A stretch of 58,554 nt of DNA, taken from assembly GCF_009618275.1 (NCBI RefSeq), contig NZ_WIAD01000037.1, forward strand, positions 1-58,554, given 5' to 3'. The first letter of the stretch is position 1, and every line of letters starts with the position of its first letter. Both the position numbers and the translations under genes were made by a program. The notes under the pieces were generated by a model. It was given only the letters and a program-made list of their open reading frames with translations. It was not told the DNA's origin and ran no database searches. Source of the DNA: Roseimaritima sediminicola. Lineage in GTDB: Bacteria > Planctomycetota > Planctomycetia > Pirellulales > Pirellulaceae. Below, one piece after another: positions 5,737 to 44,459 of this stretch.

Positions 5737-6127
5737 TTGAATGCTCTCCAGGCGGGGACGATACGAACATCGCTCTCTCGCACTATACCACAGCCGGCAG
5801 GGAGGCATTCCCGTCGCCCTTCCAGGGCTTTTGCGGCGGTTTGGTTGCGTTTCCCCGGGCTCGCGCCCGGGGCTACCACATACCATCGCTCCGCGATTCC
5901 GGAAGTGCTACTCTCACAGGCTGGAAGCCTGTGCCACCCAGAGTAGCTCGGCTGTCCTCAGCCGAGGATTGCGCACCTCAACGGCCGGGACGGCCGTGCT
6001 GCTTTCACAGGCTGGAAGCCTATGCCACACAGAGTAGCTCGGCTGTCCTCAGCCGAGGATTGCGCACCTCGACGGCCGGGACGGCCGTGCTACTCTCACA
6101 GGCTGGAAGCCTATGCCACGGCGGATG
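5737..6127. repeat. Intergenic cluster of dispersed repeats, including a 91-bp tandem duplication
   Basis: There is no gene here. Three repeat types are stacked: the cccgggctcgcgcccggg hairpin element (about 5846-5900), the caggctggaagcctatgcca element (three copies), and a block reading agtagctcggctgtcctcag then ccgaggattgcgcacctc and ggccgggacggcc. The last two form a 91-bp unit present twice in tandem (5941-6031 and 6032-6122) with few differences. The cluster ends almost at the stop codon of the ceramidase gene. Confidence 0.85.
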
Positions 6128-8334: not shown

Positions 8335-10893
8335 ATGCGATACCATACAGGCATGTGGGGCAACCAAACACAAACCAGCGGCCCGGTGAGACCCTCGCAG
8401 CGGTTGGCCGATTCCGATCGAGCCGATCGGCATCTGCTGCGGCGGCATCCCATGATCACACTGGCGATGGCGGCGGCGGCGGGGATCCAAGGTGGGTTAT
8501 GGTCACCGCGGTTCACCATTCTAGCCGCTTCCGCGGCCGCTTTGTTGTGGGTCCTGCATCGCCGAGCGGGGCACCCGCGCGTGGGATGGCTGGCGGCGAT
8601 GGGCTCTCTGGCGGCCGCCTTCTCCATCCACGCTGCGGCCCGTTATGAACAGCACGACCACGCGACGCTACCGACCTTTCTGCGGCCGGATCCCCAGCCG
8701 GTTGTCCTCCGGGCGACGGTAACCAGCATGGTCGAGCGGCGCCCCAATACGCTGGCTCGCCTGCAGGGCCGCGCGGAGGCGTGGCAGTCGATGTTCGATG
8801 CCCGCGTGACCGAGCTCCGCGCCGGAACCCGATGGGTGCCCGTCGAGGGCGGTGTGAAAGTAATCGTGGACGCCGAGACACCGTATATCCTGCCGGGCGA
8901 TCGCCTGCGAGTGATGGGCAAACTGCAACCGATTGAAGGCCCCCGTAACCCCGGCGAACCGGACCTACGGGCGCGGCAACTGGCTGCCGGTCGGCACGCC
9001 CACCTGCTGGTCGACTCGCCGTCTCAGGTGCATCGCCTGGAAACCGCTACCGACGTGCGTCGTCCGTTCGCGCGGCTGAGCAATCGTGGCGAGCAGATCC
9101 TTGCCCAACATCTGCCACCCTCGACCCGTACGCTGGCGGCCGCGTTGGTGCTGGGACGGCGCGAAGCGGTGGCGCGATCGACTCGGGAACTGCTGCTGGA
9201 AACGGGCACGGCCCACCTGTTGTCGGTCAGCGGCCTGCACCTGGGCATCGTGGCCCTGGCGGCGGCCTGGTTGCTTGCCGCCACCAATCTGTCCCAGAAC
9301 AAGCAGTACCTGGGCGTGTTCGTCATTTGTGTGGTGTATGCAGCGGTTACCGGAGGACGTCCGCCGGTGATGCGCGCGGCGTTGTTGGTCGGAGCGTTGC
9401 TGCTGGGGGCGTGGTCAGGCCGACTGGTGCATCCCCTGAACGCCCTGGCTCTGGCCGCTCTGGGGTTGTTGTGGTGGGACCCTGCCAACCTTTCGGCCGT
9501 CGGCGTGCACCTGTCGTTCCTGGCCGTAGGTACGTTGATTCTGGCCAGCCGCGGCGTGTCGGCCATGGCAGCGAGGGGACAAGCCGCCGACCCGCTGGAC
9601 CGACTGCTGGACGCGCGGCTGGGTTGGCTGCGACGCGGCGTCCTGACGGCACTGAGACGCATCCGCTTGGCCCTCTGGTTCAGCTTTTGGGTTTGGGCGA
9701 TCACCGCCCCGCTGGTCTGGTTTCATTTCCACATCCTCAGTCCGGTATCGATCCTGGCGAACGTCCTGCTCGGTCTGCCGCTGATGGTCGCGTTGATTTC
9801 TGGTTTGGCAACCGTGGCGTGCGGCTTGGCACTAGACCCGCTGGCCACCCTACCTGCGGCAGTCTGCCACGGCAGTTTGACGTGCATGCTGTGGATCATC
9901 GAAACGATCGCGACGGTGCCCGGCGGCCACCGCTGGCTGCCCTCGCCGCCGGGGCCGTGGGTGGCCGGCTTCTACGGCGTCCTGGCCGGGGGGCTGCTTT
10001 TGCCGCGCCGCTGGCCGCGCGTGGGCTTGCTGCTGTCGTGGCTGGGCGTCTGGATGTTGGTCGCTCTGCCGCTGGCGACCCTGTACTGCAGCGGCGTCCA
10101 GCATCCGGTCCCCACGGGCACTCTGGAAGCGACGTTCATCGACGTCGGTCACGGGACGAGCGTATTGATCCGCCAGGACGACGGCACAGTGTGGTTGTAC
10201 GACTGCGGACGGCTGGGCGATCCGGCGTTCAGCAGTCGGCCGATCCAGAGCGTGCTGTGGCACTACGGCATCTGGCGGCTGGACGCGGTGGTGCTGTCGC
10301 ACGCCGACGCGGATCATTACAACGCGCTGCCGGGATTACTGCGGCGCTTTGGCGTGCGACGCGTGATCACGCCGCCGGGGATGTTAGAAACCGATGAACC
10401 AGGGCTGCACCCTCTGCGCGTGGCGATCGCCGACGCAGGCGTGGAGGTGATCGTGCAGCACGCCGGCCAGACGCTGGCGCTGGCCAAGTCGCCCTCATCG
10501 ACAACGATCTACCATCCGCCGCCGCAGCGGATGGCCGGCAGCGACAATGCGAATAGCCTGGTCCTGGGACTGCAGCATGCCGGGCGAGTCTTGCTGTTGC
10601 CCGGCGACCTGGAATCGCCCGGCACCGAACGCCTACTCGAACATCCGCGGCCGCCGGGCGGAGGGATCCTGATGGCGCCACACCATGGCTCGCTGCAACA
10701 GGATCCGCGGCCGCTGCTGGACTGGGCTCGGCCGCGAACGGTGATCGTCAGCGGCAGCCGCCGAGCGGGCCAGCCGGCGGTGCTGGAGACGCTGGGCCGC
10801 AACGGCGCCGACGTACACGTGACGGCGCTGGAAGGAGCGCTGCGAACCCGCATCGATTCGGAGGGACGCGTGACGGTGTCGGCGGGGCCGTAG
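8335..10893 (+). CDS. comEC: ComEC/Rec2 family DNA-uptake channel with metallo-beta-lactamase domain
   Basis: The protein has 852 residues, typical of full ComEC. The start at MRYHTG has GAGGGG just upstream; an inner ATG at 8452 would begin directly at the first membrane segment. Order of parts: two N-terminal membrane segments, an OB-like DUF4131 region (about 90-215), the multi-pass Competence domain containing GTAHLLSVSGLHLGI (about 285-300), and a C-terminal metallo-beta-lactamase-like domain from about residue 595 (FIDVGHGTSVLI, then SHADADHYNALPG with H-x-D-x-D-H). In competent bacteria ComEC passes single-stranded DNA across the inner membrane, and the C-terminal domain is proposed to be the nuclease. 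No other competence genes are nearby. Confidence 0.93.
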   Translation: MRYHTGMWGNQTQTSGPVRPSQRLADSDRADRHLLRRHPMITLAMAAAAGIQGGLWSPRFTILAASAAALLWVLHRRAGHPRVGWLAAMGSLAAAFSIHAAARYEQHDHATLPTFLRPDPQPVVLRATVTSMVERRPNTLARLQGRAEAWQSMFDARVTELRAGTRWVPVEGGVKVIVDAETPYILPGDRLRVMGKLQPIEGPRNPGEPDLRARQLAAGRHAHLLVDSPSQVHRLETATDVRRPFARLSNRGEQILAQHLPPSTRTLAAALVLGRREAVARSTRELLLETGTAHLLSVSGLHLGIVALAAAWLLAATNLSQNKQYLGVFVICVVYAAVTGGRPPVMRAALLVGALLLGAWSGRLVHPLNALALAALGLLWWDPANLSAVGVHLSFLAVGTLILASRGVSAMAARGQAADPLDRLLDARLGWLRRGVLTALRRIRLALWFSFWVWAITAPLVWFHFHILSPVSILANVLLGLPLMVALISGLATVACGLALDPLATLPAAVCHGSLTCMLWIIETIATVPGGHRWLPSPPGPWVAGFYGVLAGGLLLPRRWPRVGLLLSWLGVWMLVALPLATLYCSGVQHPVPTGTLEATFIDVGHGTSVLIRQDDGTVWLYDCGRLGDPAFSSRPIQSVLWHYGIWRLDAVVLSHADADHYNALPGLLRRFGVRRVITPPGMLETDEPGLHPLRVAIADAGVEVIVQHAGQTLALAKSPSSTTIYHPPPQRMAGSDNANSLVLGLQHAGRVLLLPGDLESPGTERLLEHPRPPGGGILMAPHHGSLQQDPRPLLDWARPRTVIVSGSRRAGQPAVLETLGRNGADVHVTALEGALRTRIDSEGRVTVSAGP

Positions 10894-10894
10894 A

Positions 10895-11009
10895 GTAGTG
10901 GACGAGGCGACGAGTCCGTAGTGGACGAGGCGACGAGTCCCTGAACGCTGAGGACTCGTTGCTTCGTCCATTACGGTTGAGGTTCGGGACTCATTGCTTC
11001 GTCCACTAC
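10895..11009. repeat. 23-bp repeats in direct and inverted order; likely bidirectional hairpin terminator
   Basis: Two tandem copies of gtagtggacgaggcgacgag plus tcc (10895-10940) are followed by two inverted copies (10952-10974 and 10986-11009). The second and third can pair over 16 of 18 positions (ggacgaggcgacgagtcc with ggactcgttgcttcgtcc) around an 11-base loop. It lies between convergent comEC and the transporter gene, whose stop codon and last codons fall inside the repeat. Confidence 0.75.
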
Positions 11010-12317
11010 GGTTGATACCTCCTCGACCGGCGCCTCGGGGGCGGGTTTGGGCGCGGTCAGCTTCTGCACCGTTGCGGCGGCCAGCGCGAACGTGACCAGC
11101 ACGCCGACGATCGTTCCGGCGACCAGCCACTTGGGGGCGCGGCCGCCATCGATCAGCAACCACAGCAGAGCCAGGGCCATGACCGGCAAGCCCAGGGCGG
11201 TCAAGCCTTGTGCGATCACGATGAAGTTGACGTTGCTCTCGATGGCGAACACCGACCAGGAGGCGATGGCCGCGCCAAAGACCAAGGCCAACACCGTCAA
11301 GCGGCGGGGCCCCACGTGCGAAGCCCGGCTGCCCAAGCCCAGGCAGTCCGAGAATACGGTGCCGCCGATCAAGGCGTTACCGACAAAGGACGAAACGGCT
11401 CCGGCCAGAATCCCGGTGGCGAACACGCCGGTCGCGACGCGGCCGAAGGTCGGGCGCAGGCTGTCGGCCAGGGTGTCGATGCCGGTCACCATTTCCGGAG
11501 CGATCTTGCCGTGCAGAGCGGCCGCCGCGGTCCACATGATCAACATCGTCAACACACCCAGCGTGGCGATTCCCACACAGCTGTCGACCGACCGAAAACG
11601 CAGCTCACCGACCGTCCAGCGACGCTCCCGCACCAGATAACACTGGTAGAACGCGCCGGCCACCGAAAACGTCGTGGCCATCAGGGCACGAATGTCACCG
11701 GTCAACTGTTCCGACACCGCTCGAATCGACGACCCCGTCGGCACCAAACCCGACACCGCGGCGCCGGGGCGAACGCCGCCGGCAAAGGCGTTGACCAGAA
11801 AACACGCGATCATCAAACCGACCATGCTGAGCATCGCCGCTTCGATGATGCGGTACACGTCGCGGGCGGCCAAGAAGAATACGACGATGCCCAGATTGAA
11901 AGCCACCAGAAACCCGACCGAGGTCCACGGCGAATCTTTCAACGTCGGCGCAAAGTACTCTGCGGCCAACAGCAGGGCGCGGTTGTTACCGGACTGAAAC
12001 AACGCGACGATCAAAAACAGGACCACGCCGATCGCGACCGTGGGCCAATAACCGAATCGTTGCCGCAGTCGTCGCCCGGGCGTGCGGGGGTGGGACACGC
12101 CGGCGTACAGCGCGGCCACCGTCATCATTGCCATCAGGGCGGACGTGGTCAGCACCAACCAGCCAATGGTGTAGCCGTGTCGCACCCCGACACGTGAGGC
12201 GATGGTGATCGTACCGGGTCCCAGGACCACGGCGGCCACAACGACCGCAGGTCCAATGGACCGCAGCCAATCCCCGAGAGAGCGTTTCGTCGTCTGTGTG
12301 GTTGTTGCGTTCTGCAT
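10971..12317 (-). CDS. Divergent Nramp-fold (SLC11-like) transporter
   Basis: The protein has 448 residues from the ATG giving MQNATTTQTTKRSLGD; a start 20 codons earlier is open but would lie only 8 bases from the divergent nagB. About 11 membrane segments are visible. The N-terminus SIGPAVVVAAVVLGPGTITI aligns with the Nramp TM1 signature G-P-A-x5-DPGN, but the metal-binding D and N are replaced (GPGT). In TM6 the usual MPHN is replaced by SVAG in ATTFSVAGAFYQCYL. The fold is therefore Nramp-like, but the canonical Mn/Fe site is missing, so the substrate may be another ion or none of the usual ones. The C-terminal tail is Pro/Glu-rich and partly encoded by an intergenic repeat. Confidence 0.82.
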   Translation of the reverse strand: MQNATTTQTTKRSLGDWLRSIGPAVVVAAVVLGPGTITIASRVGVRHGYTIGWLVLTTSALMAMMTVAALYAGVSHPRTPGRRLRQRFGYWPTVAIGVVLFLIVALFQSGNNRALLLAAEYFAPTLKDSPWTSVGFLVAFNLGIVVFFLAARDVYRIIEAAMLSMVGLMIACFLVNAFAGGVRPGAAVSGLVPTGSSIRAVSEQLTGDIRALMATTFSVAGAFYQCYLVRERRWTVGELRFRSVDSCVGIATLGVLTMLIMWTAAAALHGKIAPEMVTGIDTLADSLRPTFGRVATGVFATGILAGAVSSFVGNALIGGTVFSDCLGLGSRASHVGPRRLTVLALVFGAAIASWSVFAIESNVNFIVIAQGLTALGLPVMALALLWLLIDGGRAPKWLVAGTIVGVLVTFALAAATVQKLTAPKPAPEAPVEEVSTVVDEAMSPEPQP

Positions 12318-26570: not shown

Positions 26571-26700
26571 GGCGACTCTGTTACTTTCGGCGGAGCGAAA
26601 GGCGACACTACTACTTTCGGCGGAGCGAAAGGCGACTCTGTTACTTTCGGCGGAGCGAAAGGCGACTCTGCTACTTTCGGCGGAGCGAAAGGCGACACTA
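26571..26700. repeat. Hairpin repeat array, 30-bp period, 4.3 copies
   Basis: The unit ggcgactctgttactttcgg plus cggagcgaaa is repeated in tandem with few changes. Its core actttcggcggagcgaaagg is the reverse complement of the core in the arrays at 34315 and 36847. The last partial copy supplies the stop codon of the FHA-EAL gene. Confidence 0.9.
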
Positions 26701-27813
26701 GGCCGGCGCGGGGCGGCCGTAATAGAAACCTTGGGCGAGGTCGAAGCCGATGTCGAGGCAGGCCTCCGCCTCCTCGGCCGTTTCAATCCCTTCGGCCAGG
26801 GCCAGGATGTCCAGGTCACGCACCATCCGCACCAACGTCTTGAGCATCTGATAACGATGCGGGTCGGCTTGATCGATCCCGCGGACCAGCGAGATGTCGA
26901 ACTTGAGGCAGTCGGGTCGCGCTTCGATTAATTCCGACAGCCGCGCTTGCCCGGCACCGAAGTCGTCGTAGGCCAGTTGGATATTCAAATCCTGCAAGCG
27001 GCTGTGCAGGTGCTTTATCATCGCCGGTTCGGTCACGGCCGCTTCGTGGATCTCCAGCACCAGCGGCGTGTTGCCGGCCATCTCGCGGAGCTTGCCCAGC
27101 GACTCGACCAAACCCTCGCCGATCATTTCTTTGGGGTGTGTATTGACGAACAGGGTGGGTCTTTCGGGAAGGTCGCGTCCCACGCGCACCCCCTCCCAGC
27201 GCAGCAACCGGCTCAGTTCCACTTCCAGGCTCAGCTGTTCGGCCGCTTGAAACATCGCCCCGACCGATTCCAGTCCGAACACCCGTCCGCGTCCCAGGAC
27301 TTCGAACCCGACCTGCTTATGGCTGCGGGGGTCGAGAATCAATTGAAAATGCGGCACGACCAATCGCTGACTCATCAGCCGATCGAACTGAACCAGCGCC
27401 AGCGCCTGGTCGCATACGTTCTCGGCGATCGTGCCGGAATTCAATCCCGTCGCGCTTTGGCGACGGACGCGAAACGGCGCTTCGGCAAAATGGACGAGAT
27501 CCTCTTCACAAACCGGGGTCGGCCGATCGATGCGGGTTCCGTTGACGTACGTGCCGTTGGTGCTGTCCAAATCCTTGACGAACAATTCGCCATTCTCCAC
27601 CCACAGCGACGCATGATGCCCGCTGACCGTTTGGAAGTGCAGCGACAGCGTCACGCCCGGTTTACGACCGACCACAAAGGGATTTTCGTCGACGGGAATA
27701 TGACGAACATCCTCTTCGCTGCGGGTGGCACCAGAGAGAAACCACACGTCTTGACTGGCCACGGTGCTACAGCGGATCGAGTCGGTGGCTGATGGGGAGG
27801 AAGACCAGGTCAT
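26698..27813 (-). CDS. FHA domain fused to EAL domain (phosphothreonine reader / c-di-GMP-type)
   Basis: The protein has 371 residues. The FHA domain (about 30-118) shows GRKPG (R50), VSGHHA (S64, H66/67) and DLDSTNGTYVNG (N86), the residues that contact phosphothreonine. The EAL domain (about 150-371) has the catalytic Glu as GFEVLGRGR (E171, EVL instead of EAL), then LFVNTHP, LEIHE, AYDDFGAG, CLKFDISLV and LAEGIET, so the ligands for metal and cyclic di-GMP look complete. It may hydrolyse or only bind c-di-GMP. FHA modules read Ser/Thr kinase output, and this gene is divergent from an operon that encodes such a kinase, so a direct link is likely though inferred. Confidence 0.88.
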   Translation of the reverse strand: MTWSSSPSATDSIRCSTVASQDVWFLSGATRSEEDVRHIPVDENPFVVGRKPGVTLSLHFQTVSGHHASLWVENGELFVKDLDSTNGTYVNGTRIDRPTPVCEEDLVHFAEAPFRVRRQSATGLNSGTIAENVCDQALALVQFDRLMSQRLVVPHFQLILDPRSHKQVGFEVLGRGRVFGLESVGAMFQAAEQLSLEVELSRLLRWEGVRVGRDLPERPTLFVNTHPKEMIGEGLVESLGKLREMAGNTPLVLEIHEAAVTEPAMIKHLHSRLQDLNIQLAYDDFGAGQARLSELIEARPDCLKFDISLVRGIDQADPHRYQMLKTLVRMVRDLDILALAEGIETAEEAEACLDIGFDLAQGFYYGRPAPA

Positions 27814-28105: not shown

Positions 28106-29428
28106 ATGTCTGCCGCGCTGCGAGACACCCATACGATCGAATCCGGCCTCCTGCATGGCCTGCTGTCCGACGACACGTTCTGGCCGGTAACGCCTCGGGA
28201 CCTGAGCGAAACGGGATTGAGCGAATCGTTTATCGAGGCGCTGATCCTGAAAACCGTGTTGACCATCGGGACGCTGAGCGGTCGTACGATCAGCGAACGC
28301 ACGGGGCTGCCGTTTCGCGTGATCGAACCGCTGCTGGAACGACTGCGGACCCGCAAACTGGTCACGCACGTGCGTCCGGCCCCCTTCAACGACTACTACT
28401 ATTCGCTGACCGAAAACGGGCAACGCGCCGCTCAGGTCCATATGCAGCAGTGCTCCTACACCGGACCGGCACCGGTGCCGCTGGCCGATTACGTGCTCAG
28501 CGTCGAAGCGCAGGCCGCCGGCTTGGACCCGATCGATCGCGACCAACTGCAACATGCCCTGCAGCGCATTTCCTACCAGGACGAATTGCTGGATCAACTC
28601 GGCCCGGCCATCAACAGCAACTCCGGACTGTTTCTGTACGGACCACCGGGCAACGGCAAAACGACCATCGCCCGCTGCCTGACCCAGTGCCTGGGCCAGG
28701 AGATCTGGATCCCGCATGCGATCCTCGACGACGGCAACCTGATCAAACTGCAGGACGACGCCTTCCACCGCGAAGCTCCCGTGCCGGTCGACGAAGGCAC
28801 CGTGCTGGCTCAGGAGTGGGACCGTCGCTGGCTCCGCATCCAACGTCCGACGGTGGTTGTCGGAGGCGAGTTGGTGATGGACAACCTGGAGGTGCGGCAT
28901 GACAAACGCAGCAACGTCTGCGAAGCGCCGTTGCAGCTGAAAAGCAACTGTGGCTGTTTGTTGATCGACGACTTTGGCCGCCAGCGAATCCAGCCCGAGG
29001 AGCTGTTGAACCGCTGGATCGTGCCACTGGAAAGCCGTCACGATTTCCTGACGTTGCCCACCGGCAAGAAGATTCAAACGCCGTTCGAACAATTAATTAT
29101 TTTCTCGACAAACCTGAATCCCGATCAATTGGTCGACGAGGCGTTCCTGCGCCGCGTTCCCTACAAGATTTTTGTGGACGATCCGTCGGAAGAAGAATTT
29201 CGCGGTATCACCAAAGCCGTAGCTGAGTCGTTTGGATTCTCCCACGGCAGTCAAGCGGCCGAACATCTCCTCGCCCGCTACCGCCAGGAAGGTCGTCCGC
29301 TGCGGCGCTGCCACCCGCGGGATCTGCTGACGCAGGTCAACAATTTCTGCAAGTACCGCAAGCTGTCGCCACAGTTGCGTCCCGAATTTCTCGACAAAGC
29401 CTGCCTGAGTTACTTCAGCGAACTGTAG
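28106..29428 (+). CDS. Winged-helix AAA ATPase, first gene of kinase-tubulin operon
   Basis: The protein has 440 residues. The N-terminal part (about 40-110) looks like a winged helix, with ALILKTVLTIGTLSGRTIS and a beta-wing region KLVTHVRPAPFNDYYYSLTE. A single AAA domain follows: Walker A GPPGNGKTT (179-187), Walker B CLLIDDFG (283-291), sensor-1 Asn in IFSTNLNP (N336), and a possible arginine finger in FLRRVPYKI (R349/R350). The C-terminal helical lid contains CHPRDLLTQVNNFCKYR. The domain resembles ORC/MoxR-type switches rather than proteases. It precedes the kinase-tubulin gene by 12 bases, so the two are surely co-transcribed and likely cooperate in assembling or disassembling something. 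I know the family only as conserved planctomycete ATPases. Confidence 0.85.
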   Translation: MSAALRDTHTIESGLLHGLLSDDTFWPVTPRDLSETGLSESFIEALILKTVLTIGTLSGRTISERTGLPFRVIEPLLERLRTRKLVTHVRPAPFNDYYYSLTENGQRAAQVHMQQCSYTGPAPVPLADYVLSVEAQAAGLDPIDRDQLQHALQRISYQDELLDQLGPAINSNSGLFLYGPPGNGKTTIARCLTQCLGQEIWIPHAILDDGNLIKLQDDAFHREAPVPVDEGTVLAQEWDRRWLRIQRPTVVVGGELVMDNLEVRHDKRSNVCEAPLQLKSNCGCLLIDDFGRQRIQPEELLNRWIVPLESRHDFLTLPTGKKIQTPFEQLIIFSTNLNPDQLVDEAFLRRVPYKIFVDDPSEEEFRGITKAVAESFGFSHGSQAAEHLLARYRQEGRPLRRCHPRDLLTQVNNFCKYRKLSPQLRPEFLDKACLSYFSEL

Positions 29429-29440
29429 GGTTTCTCTTCC

Positions 29441-32400
29441 ATGACCACCCCCAATCGGCCACCGCTTAGTTCGCCGTCGCTGCCGTCGGCGGACGCCCCC
29501 GCTTCGCCTTTGCTACCCCCGCCGCGCGACGCCGACCGCAATTCGCCGGCCGCCCTGCCCCGCGTCGCTGCCGCCCCGCCCACGCAGCCCAAGGCCGGAC
29601 GCGTGAGAACGCCCGAAGCCTCTGGCCAGGGCATCCATACGTTGTGCGCCGGTTACGAACCGATCGCCGGCTATGTGCTGCAGGAGCCCATCGGCAAAGG
29701 AGGGTTCGGCGAAGTCTGGAGCGCGATTGCGCCGGGCGGGTTTCTGAAAGCCATCAAGTTCGTCTTCGGCGCCCGCGATGAAAAGCGTGCCGGCCGAGAA
29801 CTACGCTCGCTGGAGCATATGACGGGCGTCAATCATCCGTTTCTGCTGACCCTGGAACGGTACGAGTTCGTCGAGGATCGCTTGGTCATCGTGTCGGAGC
29901 TGGCCGATGGTTCGCTGGAGGACGTCTACAACCGGCAGATCGAACGCGGTTCCTGCGGCATTCCCCGGGCCGCCCTGCTGTCGTATCTGCGGGACACCGC
30001 CGATGCGCTGGATTACCTGCACGAAAAATTCCAGCTGCAACACCTGGATATCAAACCCGGCAACCTGCTGTTGGTGGGAGGCCACGTCAAAGTCGCCGAC
30101 TTCGGCTTATTGAAGGATCTCCGCGACGAAGCTTGTTCGATGATCGGCGGGCTGACGCCGGTCTATGCACCGCCAGAAGTTTTCGATGGGCGGCCCAGTC
30201 GGCACAGCGACCAGTATTCGTTGGCCGTGATGTACCAGGAACTGCTGACCGGCAAACGCCCCTTCAGCGGACGCACGATCGCGCAGCTCGCGACCCAGCA
30301 CATCCACAGCACGCCCGATCTGGATTCCCTGCCGCCCTGCGACCGACCGATCCTCGCGCGCGCTCTGGAGAAAGACCCCCAGCGACGTTACGCCGGCTGC
30401 CGCGAACTGGTCGAAGCCCTGGCCAGCGCCCGCGGCAAGGATGTTCGTGTACGCCCCTCCGGCCGTCCCCAACCGATCGGAAGCGATACGCAAACCGGGA
30501 TGTTCGAACCCGCCGGCGGACCGGCCAGCGCCCCGGTGGAGCACCTGCCGGGACTGTCCACCTCGGTCGTCAACGATACGTGTAGGGCGGGCGCGCTGGT
30601 GGTCGCCGTCGGTGGGCTGGGGGCCGACGTCTTGCTGGAGTTGCATCAGCGTATCCGCGGTTGCGAACGCGAACCGGCCGAGCGGATCGATTCGATCCTG
30701 ATCGACACCGACCAAGAGAAACTGCACCTGCTGCGTTCGCTGGAAGGACCCGATGGTCGTTCGCCGTGCCGCACCGTCTATGCACCCCTGCGCTCGCCCG
30801 CACAGTATCGCCAGGCCGGCACGGATCACCTTCGCAGTATCAGCCGTCGCTGGATCTACAACGTTCCGCGCAGCCGCAGCACCGAGGGCATGCGTCCCCT
30901 GGGCCGCCTGGCGATGGTCGATCATGGGCAAGCCATCCGAACCGCCCTGGCCGAAGCCATCGCTCAGACGGCGGCCGATTCGCCGGAACCGCCCACGGTG
31001 TACCTGACCGGATCACTGACCGGCGGCACCGGCAGCGGCATGTTGCTGGACATCGCCTACCTGCTGAGACACCTGCTGGATCAGTCCGGTTTGGAACAAA
31101 GCGAAGTGATTCCGTTGATGGCCGGCAGTACGACCGGACCGCCTTCCCGCAACGCCTTGGGCAACGCCGATGCCGCAGCAGCGCTGAACGAATTGGCCTT
31201 CTACCTGCGCCCCGAAAACGGCTATCCCGGTGACCAGGGGGCCGGTTGGCCCAGCGTTCCGGCGGCCCGCTCGCCGCTGCGAACCAGCTACGTTTTGGCG
31301 GGCGACGAACGCACCGACGGCAACGACTGGGCCGCAGCGACGATCGCCGAATACATCTGGTACAGCAGCCAGGGCATGCGAAACCTGTTGGCCGCCGCCC
31401 GCCACGAAAACCCGGAAAACTCCGAACCGGCCGAGCCGGCAAAACCGGCAAAACCGGCAAAACCCGCGACAATCGGCATCACACAACCGGCCATCCGCTC
31501 GCTGGGCATCGTGAAACTTTCGCCTCACGCCGGCCCGGACGACGCCGCACTCCGCCCGCTGGTGGTCACGGACCTGCTCCGCATGTGGACCGGCCGGATC
31601 CACGAAGCTCGGGCGTTGGTTCCTTCGATCCTGGAACGCCTGGTACCCACGTGCGGCTTCCTGACCGACTCCTTCGAACAACAGCAGTGGCAGCAGTGGC
31701 CGATCGACGCGGCCGCCCGTCGCGTGGCGCTGTTAAAGCTGCTGGCCCGGTGGCCGATCACAACGCTTTTAAGCGATGAAAAGTTACAGCTTCAACTGGC
31801 GCCGCATCTGGAAGAGTTGCGAGGCGGCCGTGCGCATCGCCAACAGGCCGACGCTCGCCTGATCGCTCTGCGTCAGGAGCTGGCCGTTCGCCTGCGAGAT
31901 CGCCGCATCGATCTGTGCACCGCCGCCGAAACCGTCCAGCGTCTGGCCCAGCGGATGCGGGCCGAAGCCGAGAATGTTCGCATCGTCGCGCCGCGGCCAG
32001 CCCCGCCGGCGGGCTTGCCCGAAGGCGAACCGCAAAGCACCGCGGAAATGGAAGTCCTGATGGAATACGCGGCCCGCCGGATGGACGCGATGCTGCACAA
32101 GGCCGCCCAACAAGGCATGGCGAACCGGATGGCCCTGGTGGCCGAAGGACTGAGCGAGTTTGCTCAGCAACTGGCCGCCCAGATGGAAACGCTCGAACAA
32201 GCGGCCCAGCGGCTGGGCTCGCCCGGGGGAGACGATCCGCTGACGCCATGCCCCTTGACTCCACGAACCGACGAGAAACGAGAACGGTTGCAGGCGGACG
32301 TCGACCAACTGCACGATACGCTCGCGGCAAACCTGCTGTGCTTGCCCCTGCTGGAAGTACAGCAAGCGCCGGATGCGCAGTCATTGCTGCGAACCGTCCA

Positions 32401-32788
32401 GAAGGCCAGCCGTCAGCACCGCGCCGCCGAGCCAGACGCGAGTCCACACGCCAGCGAATCCGTATCGGCCCAGAAAGACGAACCACTGGCCGCCGCCCTG
32501 CAGACCGCCCGGCCAGCGCTGTTGGACCTGGGAGGCAAACAGCGATTACTGTTGGTCGTCGGTTCGCAAGAGCAACAACGCGAGCTCAAACCGCGGCTGG
32601 AACGGATCAGCGGTGGCCCCGTGACAAGTGTCGTGCTTCCTGGTACACAACCGGCTCTGATTCATGAAGCCCAGGACATTCCCCTGCCGGACATGTTAAA
32701 GCGGCTCGGCGCTTCACTGGGCGGCAATCAAAAGATCGCCGCTCGTCTGCAAAGCCGCGTCGATGTGGACTGGCCCAACCAGCTGTAA
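29441..32788 (+). CDS. Ser/Thr protein kinase fused to tubulin/FtsZ-like GTPase domain
   Basis: The protein has 1115 residues. After a Pro-rich N-terminus, the kinase domain (about 72-330) shows the glycine loop IGKGGFGEV (84-92), Lys in AIK (K106), HLDIKPGN (D203, N208; the R of HRD is L) and DFG (220-222), so it should be active. From about residue 384 a tubulin-like domain begins: ALVVAVGGLGADVLLELHQR as the first nucleotide loop, then TGSLTGGTGSGMLLD (GGTGSG, 528-533), the tubulin/FtsZ signature for the GTP phosphates. A following NADAAAALNE (N575) is at the position of a T7-like loop but lacks the second acidic residue. The rest is helical, with a short EPAKPAKPAKPA spacer. It matches the Tubulin_2-like class. 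Tight spacing with the AAA gene upstream and fetA downstream indicates one operon. Confidence 0.85.
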   Translation: MTTPNRPPLSSPSLPSADAPASPLLPPPRDADRNSPAALPRVAAAPPTQPKAGRVRTPEASGQGIHTLCAGYEPIAGYVLQEPIGKGGFGEVWSAIAPGGFLKAIKFVFGARDEKRAGRELRSLEHMTGVNHPFLLTLERYEFVEDRLVIVSELADGSLEDVYNRQIERGSCGIPRAALLSYLRDTADALDYLHEKFQLQHLDIKPGNLLLVGGHVKVADFGLLKDLRDEACSMIGGLTPVYAPPEVFDGRPSRHSDQYSLAVMYQELLTGKRPFSGRTIAQLATQHIHSTPDLDSLPPCDRPILARALEKDPQRRYAGCRELVEALASARGKDVRVRPSGRPQPIGSDTQTGMFEPAGGPASAPVEHLPGLSTSVVNDTCRAGALVVAVGGLGADVLLELHQRIRGCEREPAERIDSILIDTDQEKLHLLRSLEGPDGRSPCRTVYAPLRSPAQYRQAGTDHLRSISRRWIYNVPRSRSTEGMRPLGRLAMVDHGQAIRTALAEAIAQTAADSPEPPTVYLTGSLTGGTGSGMLLDIAYLLRHLLDQSGLEQSEVIPLMAGSTTGPPSRNALGNADAAAALNELAFYLRPENGYPGDQGAGWPSVPAARSPLRTSYVLAGDERTDGNDWAAATIAEYIWYSSQGMRNLLAAARHENPENSEPAEPAKPAKPAKPATIGITQPAIRSLGIVKLSPHAGPDDAALRPLVVTDLLRMWTGRIHEARALVPSILERLVPTCGFLTDSFEQQQWQQWPIDAAARRVALLKLLARWPITTLLSDEKLQLQLAPHLEELRGGRAHRQQADARLIALRQELAVRLRDRRIDLCTAAETVQRLAQRMRAEAENVRIVAPRPAPPAGLPEGEPQSTAEMEVLMEYAARRMDAMLHKAAQQGMANRMALVAEGLSEFAQQLAAQMETLEQAAQRLGSPGGDDPLTPCPLTPRTDEKRERLQADVDQLHDTLAANLLCLPLLEVQQAPDAQSLLRTVQKASRQHRAAEPDASPHASESVSAQKDEPLAAALQTARPALLDLGGKQRLLLVVGSQEQQRELKPRLERISGGPVTSVVLPGTQPALIHEAQDIPLPDMLKRLGASLGGNQKIAARLQSRVDVDWPNQL

Positions 32789-32799
32789 CGGGCGTCACC

Positions 32800-33492
32800 A
32801 TGCCTGCTCCCACCGTTAGTGCCCCGCCGGTCGAACTGCGCGGTCATCGACTGCGGCGCGTGGCCGGATCGCCGCCGCGAGCCTTGCTCCGCGACGTCGA
32901 CCTGAGGTTGGGTGCCGGCCAGAGAGTGGCTCTATCGGGGCCCAGCGGAGCCGGCAAATCGGTGCTGCTTCGCGTGCTGGCCTGCCTCGACCCGCTCGAC
33001 GGTGGCCGCCTGACGTGGAACGGCCAACCGCTCGATGCGTCCGCGATCCCGGCCTACCGCGCGGCGGTGATCCTGTTGCTACAGCACCCGGTTATGGATT
33101 CCGGCACGGTTGAGGATCAATTGCGGCTGCCCTACGCGTGGCGACACCACCGGGCGGCGGGCCATCGTTTCTCACGCTCGCGAGCCCTGGAACACCTTCG
33201 CGTCTGCGGCCGTGGGAAAACCTTTCTGGATCAACCCGCTCGGCGGCTCAGCGGTGGCGAAAGGCAGCTGGTGGCACTGCTGCGGGCGCTGTTGCTGGAG
33301 CCTTGGGTGTTGTTGCTGGACGAACCCACTTCGGCCATGGACCGGGAGATGACCGAAGTGGCTCAGCGCTGGATCGCCGAGTGGCTTGCCGACCGCCCCG
33401 AGCGCAGTACCATCTGGGTGACCCACGACCGGGCCCAGCAACAGCGGATCGCCACCGTCCACTGGCGGCTGCAAGCCGGAAAGATCATCTAG
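32800..33492 (+). CDS. fetA: FetA-type (YbbL) ABC transporter ATPase
   Basis: The protein has 230 residues with a single ABC domain: Walker A GPSGAGKS, Q-loop LLLQHPVMDSGTVEDQLRLP, signature RLSGGERQLVALLRAL, Walker B VLLLDEPTSAMD and switch WVTHDRAQ. The short, stand-alone ATPase next to a UPF0014 permease identifies FetA. In E. coli, FetAB exports iron and improves oxidative-stress resistance. It begins 11 bases after the kinase-tubulin stop and ends 10 bases before the permease start, so it shares that operon. Confidence 0.88.
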   Translation: MPAPTVSAPPVELRGHRLRRVAGSPPRALLRDVDLRLGAGQRVALSGPSGAGKSVLLRVLACLDPLDGGRLTWNGQPLDASAIPAYRAAVILLLQHPVMDSGTVEDQLRLPYAWRHHRAAGHRFSRSRALEHLRVCGRGKTFLDQPARRLSGGERQLVALLRALLLEPWVLLLDEPTSAMDREMTEVAQRWIAEWLADRPERSTIWVTHDRAQQQRIATVHWRLQAGKII

Positions 33493-33502
33493 CAGGACGC
33501 GA

Positions 33503-34297
33503 ATGCAAACCGAATACATCTCGTTGGCGTGGTGGCAGGTCGCCGTGGCGGCCGCTTTGATCCTGATCAACGGCGCGATCTCGCTGGTCCTGCAACTGAG
33601 ACTGGGAAAACGCTTGCTGGTCGCGTCGCTGCGGATGACCGTCCAGTTGCTGCTGATCGGCTATCTGCTGAACACGATCTTTGCGATCGATTCCTGGCCC
33701 GCTGTCGCCGCGCTGATCCTGATCATGACCGTGATCGCCGGCCGCGCAGCCGCCAGCCGCACTCACATCGGTTTCCCAGGCAAACAAGGGGCGGCAATCG
33801 TTTCGGTCGCCTTCAGCGGATGGTTCGTGACCGTCCTCGCCCTGCAGCTGGTGATCACGCCGGAGCCCTGGTGGCATCCGCAGTATGCGATTCCCCTGCT
33901 GGGCATGATCCTGGGCAACGCCCTGACCGGGATCTCGCTGGGAATGGAACGGTTCGTCGTCGGCACCCAACAGCGGCGTAGCGAAATCGAGGGCCGTCTG
34001 GTCTTGGGCGCCAGCCGGTTCGAAGCCGTCGCCCCCATTACGGGCGACGCGATCCGAACCGGGATGATTCCGATTCTGAACACGATGACCGTCGCCGGCA
34101 TCGTCAGCCTGCCCGGAATGATGACCGGACAATTGCTGGCCGGCGCGGAGCCGCTGGACGCGGTCCGGTATCAAATCGTGATCATGTTCCTGATCGCCGC
34201 CGCCGTGGCCATGGGCACCGTCGGCGCGGTCCTGCTGAGTCTGCGGCGGGTGACGACCCGCGAGCACCAACTGCTGTGGCTGGAACAGGACGGATAA
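33503..34297 (+). CDS. fetB: FetB-type (YbbM, UPF0014) ABC transporter permease
   Basis: The protein has 264 residues and about 7 membrane segments. Family hallmarks are clear: SLRMTVQLLLIGYLLNTIF, IPLLGMILGNALTGISLGME, LVLGASRFEAV, SLPGMMTGQLLAGAEPLDAV and RYQIVIMFLIAAA. It forms the membrane half of FetAB, predicted to export iron across the inner membrane. It is the last gene of the AAA/kinase-tubulin/FetAB operon. A hairpin-repeat array begins 17 bases after the stop and may end transcription. Confidence 0.9.
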   Translation: MQTEYISLAWWQVAVAAALILINGAISLVLQLRLGKRLLVASLRMTVQLLLIGYLLNTIFAIDSWPAVAALILIMTVIAGRAAASRTHIGFPGKQGAAIVSVAFSGWFVTVLALQLVITPEPWWHPQYAIPLLGMILGNALTGISLGMERFVVGTQQRRSEIEGRLVLGASRFEAVAPITGDAIRTGMIPILNTMTVAGIVSLPGMMTGQLLAGAEPLDAVRYQIVIMFLIAAAVAMGTVGAVLLSLRRVTTREHQLLWLEQDG

Positions 34298-34314
34298 GTG
34301 TCGCCAGTGTCGCC

Positions 34315-34520
34315 AGTGTCGCCTTTCGCTCCGCGAAAGTCACTGCGGCCGGCGCCAGTGTCGCCTTTCGCTCCGCGAAAGTTGCTGCGGCCGGCGCCAG
34401 TGTCGCCTTTCGCGCCGCGAAAGTTGTTGCAGTCGGCGCCAGTGTCGCCTTTCGCTCCGCGAAAGTTGCTGCGGCCGGCGCCAGTGTCGCCTTTCGCTCC
34501 GCGAAAGTTGCTGTAGGCAT
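34315..34520. repeat. Hairpin repeat array, 42-bp period, about 5 copies
   Basis: Each unit has the hairpin core gtcgcctttcgctccgcgaa plus agt, followed by a 19-base spacer tgctgcggccggcgcc-like. The third copy carries a compensating-type change in the hairpin. The array starts immediately after fetB and is followed by an inverted copy (actttcgacggagcgaaagg) and one caggctggcagcct element up to about 34575. Confidence 0.9.
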
Positions 34521-36846: not shown

Positions 36847-37045
36847 TAGTGTCGCCTTTCGCTCCGCGAAAGTTATCGAGTGTCGCCTTTCGCTCCGCGA
36901 AAGTATTCGAGTGTCGCCTTTCGCTCCGCGAAAGTTATCGAGCGTCGCCTTTCGCTCCGCGAAAGTTATCGAGCGTCGCCTTTCGCTCCGCGAAAGTCGT
37001 CTCAACACCGCCCCGCAACTTTCGGCGGAGCGAAAGGCGACCCTG
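36847..37045. repeat. Hairpin repeat array, 31-bp period, 5 copies plus one inverted copy
   Basis: The unit gagtgtcgcctttcgctccg plus cgaaagttatc is repeated five times, followed by the inverted form aactttcggcggagcgaaag. The core hairpin cttt-cg/cg-aaag matches that of the 26571 and 34315 arrays, but the spacer differs. The array lies between divergent genes. Confidence 0.9.
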
Positions 37046-44243: not shown

Positions 44244-44459
44244 CAGTGGCATAGGCTTCCAGCCTGTGAACAGTGGCATAGGCTTCCAGCCTGTGAGCAG
44301 TGGCATAGGCTTCCAGCCTGTGAACAGTGGCATAGGCTTCCAGCCTGTGGACAGTGGCATAGGCTTCCAGCCTGTGGACAGTGGCATAGGCTTCCAGCCT
44401 GTGAACAGTGACATAGGCTTCCAGCCTGTGGACAGTGGCATAGGCTTCCAGCCTGTGAG
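44244..44459. repeat. 27-bp tandem hairpin repeat, 8 copies
   Basis: The unit cagtggcataggcttccagc plus ctgtgaa occurs eight times without a break; copies differ only in the last two bases and one internal base. Each contains aggct-tcc-agcct, a small hairpin. Single copies of the same element lie near 5920, 6010, 6100, 34555 and 57097. A minus-strand frame reading GWKPMPL repeats runs through it, but this is a by-product of the 27-bp period. Confidence 0.95.

Follow-up and report, generated by a model that had tools for sequence, protein, structure and literature searches.

A kinase-FtsZl1 fusion gene of Roseimaritima sediminicola and its conserved FHA-EAL and AAA+ ATPase partner genes

Results

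The fusion gene and its kinase half

The window, a stretch of 58,554 nucleotides from Roseimaritima sediminicola, holds a gene in which a Ser/Thr (Hanks-type) kinase is fused to a tubulin-like FtsZl1 region, together with genes for an FHA-EAL protein and a winged-helix AAA+ ATPase, the latter lying upstream with a gap of 12 bp to the fusion gene (Table 1). The reading frame of 1115 residues that an earlier note had proposed was recovered at exactly the coordinates claimed, on the forward strand. The fusion protein matched PF00069 at 112.1 bits against a cut-off of 31.7 and PF13809 at 81.6 bits against a cut-off of 27, so far beyond both cut-offs that a chance match is excluded. The profile of alignment A1, in which the window protein is itself one row, matched it with an E-value of 2.9e-185.

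Table 1. Features of the locus and their coordinates in the window.
Feature	Position	Strand	Evidence
FHA-EAL protein, 371 aa	26698-27813	-	PF00498 E 5.8e-16, PF00563 E 1.4e-35
Winged-helix AAA+ ATPase, 440 aa	28106-29428	+	Pfam, AlphaFold2 and Foldseek
Kinase-FtsZl1 fusion gene	29441-32788	+	ATG start, 1115 aa
Ser/Thr (Hanks-type) kinase domain, residues 78-318	29672-30394	+	PF00069 E 3.8e-32
Tubulin_2 / FtsZl1 nucleotide-binding domain, residues 386-587	30596-31201	+	PF13809 E 8.4e-23, AlphaFold2, Foldseek
Family signature SRRWIYNVPRSRSTEGMRPLGRLAMV, residues 468-493	30842-30919	+	near-invariant in 36 aligned proteins
In-frame 9-bp tandem repeat at expected T7 position	31425-31464	+	TRF, alignment
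C-terminal alpha/beta unit, residues about 1032-1094	32534-32722	+	secondary structure of model

Judged from its residues the kinase, which is probably cytoplasmic, looks intact. All of its motifs were present (AIK with K106, HLD at 201-203 with D203, DFG at 220-222 and APPE), with K106, D203 and DFG at the very positions from which the earlier note had called the kinase apparently active. The HxDxKxxN motif was kept in 88 of 89 sequences, the window included. The sole copy among 36 to have lost the catalytic Asp (HLN for HLD, locus L070) has lost the activation-loop Thr as well, and its genome alone, among the 35 family genomes bearing the fusion, had no counted FHA-EAL. Compared with a same-genus copy, kinase residues 71-330 gave a dN of 0.059 and a dS of 0.97; dN was similarly low for the AAA and FHA-EAL genes (0.056 and 0.061, respectively), with the dS of all three genes near saturation (0.97-1.33).

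In a kinase tree all 59 fusion kinases separated from 30 other kinases with a UFBoot value of 100. This supports one origin of the kinase fusion and falls short of proof because the comparison kinases, which were drawn from 313 matches in four genomes, are not the nearest relatives. A large published tree had no supported architecture clades in the part of that work compared here (PMC11032199), whereas the separation reported here comes from a much smaller sample.

The tubulin-like half

The claim of a tubulin/FtsZ-like region held up: a profile match (PF13809) and tubulin-superfamily Foldseek matches for the model were both found, the lack of any such profile match or a different fold having been set beforehand as the refuting outcome. 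PF13809 was matched by 36 of 36 aligned kinase-fused proteins (window included) and was far over its cut-off in all seven proteins scanned from families f107 and f110. PF00091 was matched at E <= 0.1 by 17 of the 36, at best with 9.1e-6, and gave 13.8 bits on the window protein, under its cut-off of 33. The R. sediminicola genome yielded a single PF13809 match and no match to PF00091.

The AlphaFold2 model of residues 360-1115 (pLDDT 83) has a tubulin/FtsZ fold that is followed by a long helical C-terminal region. Foldseek against the PDB returned 91 matches at E <= 0.001, and the 50 listed were all tubulin, gamma-tubulin, CetZ or FtsZ by entry title. The top match among those listed was CetZ (3zid; E 3.6e-5, probability 1.00, TMq 0.24, TMt 0.47), which differs from the fusion in having 360 residues against the 756 modelled here, 12% identity and no kinase in the chain. 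The modest TM-scores are probably due to the extra helical sequence in much of the model. A sequence search of solved structures with residues 381-1115 alone gave no match, and a profile search of solved structures gave mostly helical or coiled-coil chains, with no tubulin among the 60 listed of 121 matches; the fold assignment therefore rests on Pfam and the model. The C-terminal alpha/beta unit is set apart from the core by the long helical stretch and may represent the latter half of a tubulin intermediate domain that is split in two.

Both nucleotide loops that the earlier note had read as those of the tubulin/FtsZ fold, VVAVGGLGADVLLELHQR and GSLTGGTGSGMLLD, were found in the fusion protein, T4 as TGGTGSG (GGTGSG at 528-533) and the glycine-rich T1 as VGGLG (390-394). 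Of 89 sequences, the window protein among them, 35 had GGTGSG exactly and 81 fitted the relaxed form GG.[GA][SGA][GA]. Order and the pattern P-x-G-R-x-A suggest that the family signature SRRWIYNVPRSRSTEGMRPLGRLAMV occupies the T3-H3 position of FtsZ; its RRW part was missing from all 14 f107/f110 copies, the f107 group of this 89-sequence motif count taking in one f110 locus (L234). From the end of the H7-like helix to the strand that follows it, H7 and S7 being assigned by their order in the model, no column of the 36 aligned sequences was at least 50% acidic. The tandem repeat at the expected T7 position encodes a low-complexity E/P/A/K stretch with low pLDDT.

These results bear on the interpretation put forward in the earlier note, that a GTP-driven tubulin-like polymer clusters and activates the kinase and thereby acts as a self-assembling signalling scaffold. 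The kinase and the tubulin fold of that proposal proved real, T1 and T4 are intact in the window protein, and characterised tubulin-superfamily proteins form filaments, as the authors of PMC2875224 argue. However, the T7 position has no conserved acids, the exact T4 motif is confined to the minority of sequences given above, and T6-H7 elements of FtsZl1 were not confidently identified according to PMC2875224. The large helical stretch may also block end-to-end stacking. A GTP-driven polymer of this kind is therefore considered unlikely.

The partner genes and their linkage to the fusion

The FHA-EAL protein joins a phosphothreonine-reader domain to a c-di-GMP phosphodiesterase domain with canonical residues in both. 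Its FHA domain reads VGRKP, VSGHHA and STNGTYVNG, of which we take GR, SxxH and NG to be the phosphothreonine-binding residues, and its EAL domain reads EVL, FVNTHP, EIHE, YDDFG, LKFD, AEGIE and AQG, of which ExL, N, E, DD, K, E and Q presumably form the phosphodiesterase catalytic set. The FHA residues GR, SxxH, STNG and NG were retained in the window and in all 30 adjacent copies. In 10 of these 30 copies, which still retain the FHA residues, the EAL domain was eroded, and c-di-GMP hydrolysis thus cannot be a constant output.

Sequence matches of the AAA protein (VCP/spastin/Msp1) were limited to a short stretch around the P-loop. Foldseek of its AlphaFold2 model, which is of middling quality (pLDDT 69.7), returned an uncharacterised Pyrococcus protein first, followed by i-AAA, p97, proteasomal, RuvB and spastin structures. 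At the level of the model the partner was confirmed as an AAA+ ATPase, with no closer class since these matches span many kinds of AAA+ ATPase. A pilus link of the AAA protein was not supported, as 10 AAA contexts away from the fusion had no neighbour common to more than 3 loci.

Of the 47 contexts fetched, 35 were kinase-fused; 30 of these 35 contained the FHA-EAL gene and 25 contained the AAA gene, compared with 9 of the 47 for the next most frequent neighbour families. The five fusion loci lacking an adjacent FHA-EAL gene include the two of the 35 that are cut by contig ends. Among the 80 named loci ranked best of 157, which partially overlap with the other genomes surveyed, 62 had an uncut gene preceded by at least 4.5 kb; of these, 46 had both partners, 10 FHA-EAL only and 6 AAA only. 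Completeness was judged upstream only, so that a downstream FHA-EAL may be missed at contig ends. In the named loci FHA-EAL was placed far upstream in the opposite orientation (35), as the next gene upstream on the same strand (17), downstream on the same strand (9) or far upstream on the same strand (5). Twenty loci were chosen by hand, and in nine hand-picked loci of other planctomycete families the set was found again, with FHA-EAL in 9/9 and AAA in 8/9.

The fusion, the FHA-EAL protein and the winged-helix AAA ATPase hence form a conserved gene set of varying order. The partners are not obligatory, as families f107/f110 carry multiple copies of the fusion (14 genes at 11 loci) with neither partner in the fetched 16-20 kb. 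The FHA-EAL orthologue was also found at sites apart from the fusion, and 4 genomes have it without any fusion. Co-occurrence was 29/35 in fusion genomes versus 4/25 in those without (Fisher p 2.6e-7, phylogeny ignored), a fairer comparison than one using 34/35 because the latter counts degenerate local FHA-EAL in fusion genomes only.

Distribution and division

Strong matches to the fusion were missing from 25 of 60 family genomes, 12 of these being listed as >95% complete. That profile search scored at most 16 candidates per genome, and a fully scored PF13809 search agreed on the absences except for two kinase-free genes (G313, G341). PF13809 was matched in 14 of 294 phylum genomes, and the fusion was present in 139 of 297 class genomes (3 candidates per genome scored; matches may include fragments); the two figures are not comparable since the draws hold different genomes. 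PF00091 was over its cut-off in none of the 60 family genomes, the weak match of G341 (E 4.3e-4) lying inside its kinase-free FtsZl1 gene. The bearing on division raised in the earlier note is weak even so, as the absences make the fusion look dispensable and a division role unlikely.

Discussion

The kinase fusion was already published in 2010, when Makarova & Koonin described the FtsZl1 family and its N-terminal kinase in Planctomycetes (PMC2875224), and papers of 2023 (PMC9871819) and 2024 (PMC11032199) repeat the kinase-tubulin-like combination; the conserved FHA-EAL and AAA gene set is new here. The 2010 proteins have the same kinase, FtsZ-like domain and long helical region, and in the same paper a reviewer noted that the gene of Pirellula staleyi has a diguanylate phosphodiesterase, Psta_0487, associated with it. 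The 'FtsZ-like' group of Santana-Molina et al. 2023 belongs to the same Pfam family and, in the part of PMC9871819 compared, is set aside as divergent, without neighbours or function. According to the corresponding part of PMC11032199, the tubulin-like domain is the one most often associated with Planctomycetota Ser/Thr kinases that are solely cytoplasmic, for which gene neighbours are not given there. Among the papers listed in literature searches, as judged by title and abstract, none was found to describe the FHA-EAL/AAA set with a kinase-FtsZl1 fusion.

From an operon analysis Makarova & Koonin propose that FtsZl1 proteins as a whole, of which the fusion is one by PF13809, act in membrane remodelling or as vesicle machinery. 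Their argument relies on vWA, OmpA and GTPase neighbours, and the portion of PMC2875224 considered makes no mention of the FHA-EAL and AAA set. In our contexts a vWA neighbour family accompanied 4 kinase-free FtsZl1 genes (L019, L022, L064, L069) and no kinase-fused one. One member each of the vWA and GGDEF neighbour clusters was scanned, the vWA member (1 of 4) being over cut-off for PF13519 and PF00092. Among the families listed for nine scanned window proteins none was of the vWA, OmpA or GTPase operon, that operon being a frequent FtsZl1 context and not a strict requirement. Membrane remodelling is accordingly rated as rather improbable for the fusion.

A role in biological conflict or phage defence, as in systems of the GTPase/tubulin type (Kaur et al. 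2020), is suggested by weak similarity of the AAA protein to IetA, by kinase matches to PD-T4-6 and mad6, and by the tubulin-containing conflict systems proposed earlier, in part of PMC7159879. These kinase matches do not extend beyond the kinase domain and could be generic, those of the AAA protein are limited to a short segment at the Walker A motif, toxin and effector families were absent from the nine scanned window proteins, and occurrence in 139/297 class genomes with slow kinase and AAA change does not look like rapid turnover, all of which makes this explanation very unlikely. That the fusion is an FtsZ stand-in for planctomycete cell division has the right kind of model fold and the missing PF00091 matches in its favour and is highly improbable given its absence from 25 of the 60 family genomes, the 14/294 phylum figure and recurrent neighbours among which none was recognised as a division gene.

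The best explanation, to which we give an even chance, is a phospho-signalling hub made of kinase-FtsZl1 and its two adjacent partners and linked to c-di-GMP. The FtsZl1 half, i.e. the C-terminal two thirds with the large helical stretch, would act in a nucleotide-dependent manner as a regulatory or oligomerising platform by which the activity or clustering of the kinase is set. The kinase would phosphorylate threonine in its own chain or in the AAA protein and, as the conserved FHA residues and gene linkage suggest, the FHA domain of FHA-EAL would dock on the resulting phosphothreonine and recruit or gate c-di-GMP hydrolysis. The AAA+ ATPase may remodel or reset the complex, or serve as a DNA-binding switch via its winged helix, and the output would probably be a c-di-GMP-controlled behaviour (attachment or motility) and not cytokinesis. 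Biochemistry on any kinase-fused member was not found in the literature. A precedent, yet a distant relative, is Synechocystis Sll0445, which shares the Tubulin_2 domain; interruption of sll0445 impairs phototaxis, and putative complexes with pilus assembly proteins are reported (PMC9880817). Its neighbours carry FtsA and DivIC domains, and no kinase is mentioned in the part of that paper compared.

A more specific version of the hub, which we regard as speculative and doubtful, is that in these bacteria without FtsZ a tubulin-fold scaffold clusters the kinase, autophosphorylation follows, FHA recruits the c-di-GMP phosphodiesterase and the AAA+ ATPase resets the system. If this were true, a cytoskeleton-type fold that senses nucleotide or assembly state would be coupled directly to a second messenger. 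The FHA-EAL and AAA partners make an orphan tubulin relative a module with concrete and cheap predictions, which concern the phosphorylation target, the binder of the mark and the change in c-di-GMP. Should the tubulin-like half assemble, a protein of cytoskeletal fold would act as a signalling switch and not as a division protein, and would do so in a group that lacks FtsZ.

Fold and nucleotide binding of the fusion protein

The earlier note had described a Ser/Thr kinase joined to a tubulin/FtsZ-like GTPase domain, and both its reading frame and its kinase catalytic residues were found in place (see table of features). The tubulin-like assignment was borne out by a match to PF13809 (Tubulin_2, the FtsZl1 family) and by the tubulin-type entries that Foldseek retrieved with a predicted structure. 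The fold was predicted for the window protein from residue 360, using an alignment with 35 homologues, and the model had a mean pLDDT of 83.2 and a pTM of 0.71. A search of the PDB returned 91 matches at E <= 0.001, and each of the 50 listed was a tubulin, gamma-tubulin, CetZ or FtsZ entry, the top one being CetZ (E 3.6e-5, probability 1.00, TMt 0.47). All 36 aligned proteins matched PF13809 while 17 of these weakly matched PF00091, the canonical FtsZ/tubulin family. Homology of this half to the tubulin superfamily is therefore solid. The most conserved stretch across the 36 proteins, RRWxYNxPRSxxTEGxRPLGRLA, probably sits at T3-H3, as judged from its order and the P-x-G-R-x-A pattern.

The window protein retains intact T1 and T4 nucleotide loops, and nucleotide binding is predicted as likely. 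Canonical GTPase-driven polymerisation is doubtful: between the H7-like helix and the following strand, no column of the 36-sequence alignment reaches 50% acidic residues. In the window protein this region is a repeat-coded E/P/A/K stretch. Exact GGTGSG was found in 35/89 sequences (window counted in, families f107 and f110 of the class left out) and a relaxed form in 81/89, compared to 88/89 for the kinase HxDxKxxN motif.

As an architecture the fusion is known. FtsZl1 was defined in 2010 with an N-terminal kinase on four planctomycete members (PMC2875224), the architecture is repeated in PMC9871819, and tubulin-like is reported as the commonest associated domain among solely cytoplasmic planctomycete kinases (PMC11032199). 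The sole phenotype we met for the Tubulin_2 domain family is impaired phototaxis of Synechocystis sll0445 mutants (PMC9880817). Overall, the observation in the earlier note was confirmed and its interpretation partly supported.

Distribution of the fusion

PF13809 was found in 14/294 genomes drawn from the phylum and in 37/60 drawn from the window's family. A profile built on the aligned fusion proteins (A1) matched 139/297 genomes of the class and 37/60 of the family, 35 of the latter strongly. Among the named genomes, it is carried by Rhodopirellula baltica, Rubripirellula, Neorhodopirellula, Stieleria, Botrimarina and Lacipirellula, among others, and the window probably belongs to the Pirellulaceae. 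The suggested relevance to division looks weak: PF00091 exceeded its cut-off in 0/60 family genomes, yet 25 of these have no strong A1 match (12 of the 25 are listed as >95% complete). As these FtsZ-less relatives live without the fusion, a core division role is unlikely.

A conserved gene neighbourhood

Features of the window and of the fusion protein
Feature	Position	Strand	Remark
GGCATAGGCTTCCAGCCTGTG array	5905-6119		palindrome-bearing motif; strand opposite to 44244-44458
Third tandem array	26571-26696		unit similar to CTTTCGCTCCGCGAAAG type
FHA-EAL gene	26698-27813	-	divergent from AAA and fusion genes
AAA ATPase gene	28106-29428	+	N-terminal winged-helix-like region; ends 12 bases before fusion gene
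Kinase-FtsZl1 fusion gene	29441-32788	+	1115 aa
Protein kinase domain	residues 78-318		Pfam E 3.8e-32, above curated cut-off
Tubulin_2 domain	residues 386-587		Pfam E 8.4e-23, above curated cut-off
FetA-like gene	32800-33492		iron-efflux ABC pair; starts 11 bases past fusion
FetB-like gene	33503-34297		iron-efflux ABC pair; 10 bases past FetA
CTTTCGCTCCGCGAAAG array	34311-34513		tandem, palindromic unit
CTTTCGCTCCGCGAAAG array	36848-36997		tandem, palindromic unit
GGCATAGGCTTCCAGCCTGTG array	44244-44458		palindrome-bearing motif

Among 47 fetched contexts, 35 with a fused kinase and 12 with kinase-free FtsZl1, the FHA-EAL gene was present in 30/35 and the AAA gene in 25/35 of the fused ones, the next commonest neighbour families reaching 9/47. 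Neither clustered with the kinase-free contexts (0/12, some being short). The five fused loci without an adjacent FHA-EAL gene are L066 and L068, which end at contig ends, L058 and L077, which lack it locally, and L070. Four kinase-free contexts (L019, L022, L064, L069) have a vWA-domain neighbour in common, an arrangement in the same phylum that resembles that of Makarova & Koonin; the one member scanned (L064) combines vWA and PKD. One genome (G301) carries both FtsZl1 types.

In named genomes 79 of the best-ranked 80 of 157 loci were fused, the remaining one being cut off. Of 62 with an uncut fusion gene and at least 4.5 kb upstream, 46 had both partners, 10 FHA-EAL only and 6 AAA only. Gene order differed among the named loci: FHA-EAL was far upstream in divergent orientation in 35, immediately upstream on the fusion's own strand in 17, downstream in 9, and far upstream but co-oriented with the fusion in 5. 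Nine hand-picked loci from other families of the class had FHA-EAL in 9/9 and AAA in 8/9. That linkage is kept despite rearranged gene order argues for joint function of the three genes. No description of this conserved signalling context was found in the literature searched, mostly by titles and abstracts.

In f107 and f110 neither partner was found near 14 fusion genes in 11 loci (L225-L234, L244), and the RRW motif was found in 0/14, with PF13809 matched by 7/7 copies scanned. These families carry several copies per genome, in tandem in L225, L233 and L244; f107 genomes of the class draw have up to four A1 matches each, and three separate fusion genes were confirmed in one (G363).

A FetB match occurred only in the same-genus relative L056 among the fetched contexts, so the FetA/FetB pair looks like a recent operon neighbour. 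An exact 25-base form of the CTTTCGCTCCGCGAAAG-type unit occurs 67 times in the genome (reversed control 0), and these intergenic arrays resemble interspersed repeats of the REP type; the GGCATAGGCTTCCAGCCTGTG arrays are seemingly another family.

Integrity, rates and proposed mechanism

Phosphothreonine-binding residues of the FHA domain are kept in 31/31 adjacent copies, window included, while the EAL catalytic residues are eroded in 10/31, in each case where the gene is the next one upstream of the fusion on its strand. The full EAL set is retained in the window and 19/20 other non-eroded copies, L067 lacking one glutamate. What stays constant in the partner is therefore the phospho-reader and not the hydrolase. 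Nine loci (L016, L017, L059, L061, L071, L072, L074, L079, L081) share an opposite-strand gene beside the eroded version; in L072, the only copy scanned, this gene matches response-regulator-like and GGDEF domains and, weakly, CBS, and its GGDEF motif, judged by eye, looks eroded, making it a second decayed c-di-GMP domain.

The L070 fusion (8629-11982) is the single one of 36 to have lost the catalytic Asp (HLN for HLD), together with an altered Gly loop and loss of the activation-loop Thr, and is an apparent pseudokinase with its FtsZ-like half kept. Its genome is also the sole one of 35 fusion-bearing family genomes with zero FHA-EAL counted, a single case that points in the same direction as the phospho-reader. 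However, FHA-EAL orthologues are also found at sites apart from the fusion, as well as in 4 fusion-less genomes.

Compared to the same-genus copy, the kinase, AAA and FHA-EAL are held alike (dN 0.059, 0.056 and 0.061), the FtsZ core reaches 0.18, and the helical region drifts (residues 761-1015, 0.59); dS for the three genes is 0.97-1.33, near saturation. The split of 59 fusion kinases of several families from 30 other kinases (UFBoot 100) is consistent with a single ancient kinase-FtsZl1 fusion event.

From the observed parts, their integrity and their linkage we infer substrates, nucleotide, assembly and output. The FtsZl1 half would gate or gather a kinase hub, phosphothreonine made by the kinase would be read by the FHA domain of the partner, thereby tying the kinase to c-di-GMP turnover, and the AAA protein, whose model resembles AAA+ motors generally, may act as a remodeller. 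This is the best supported account, and we give it an even chance of describing how these planctomycetes use the fusion.
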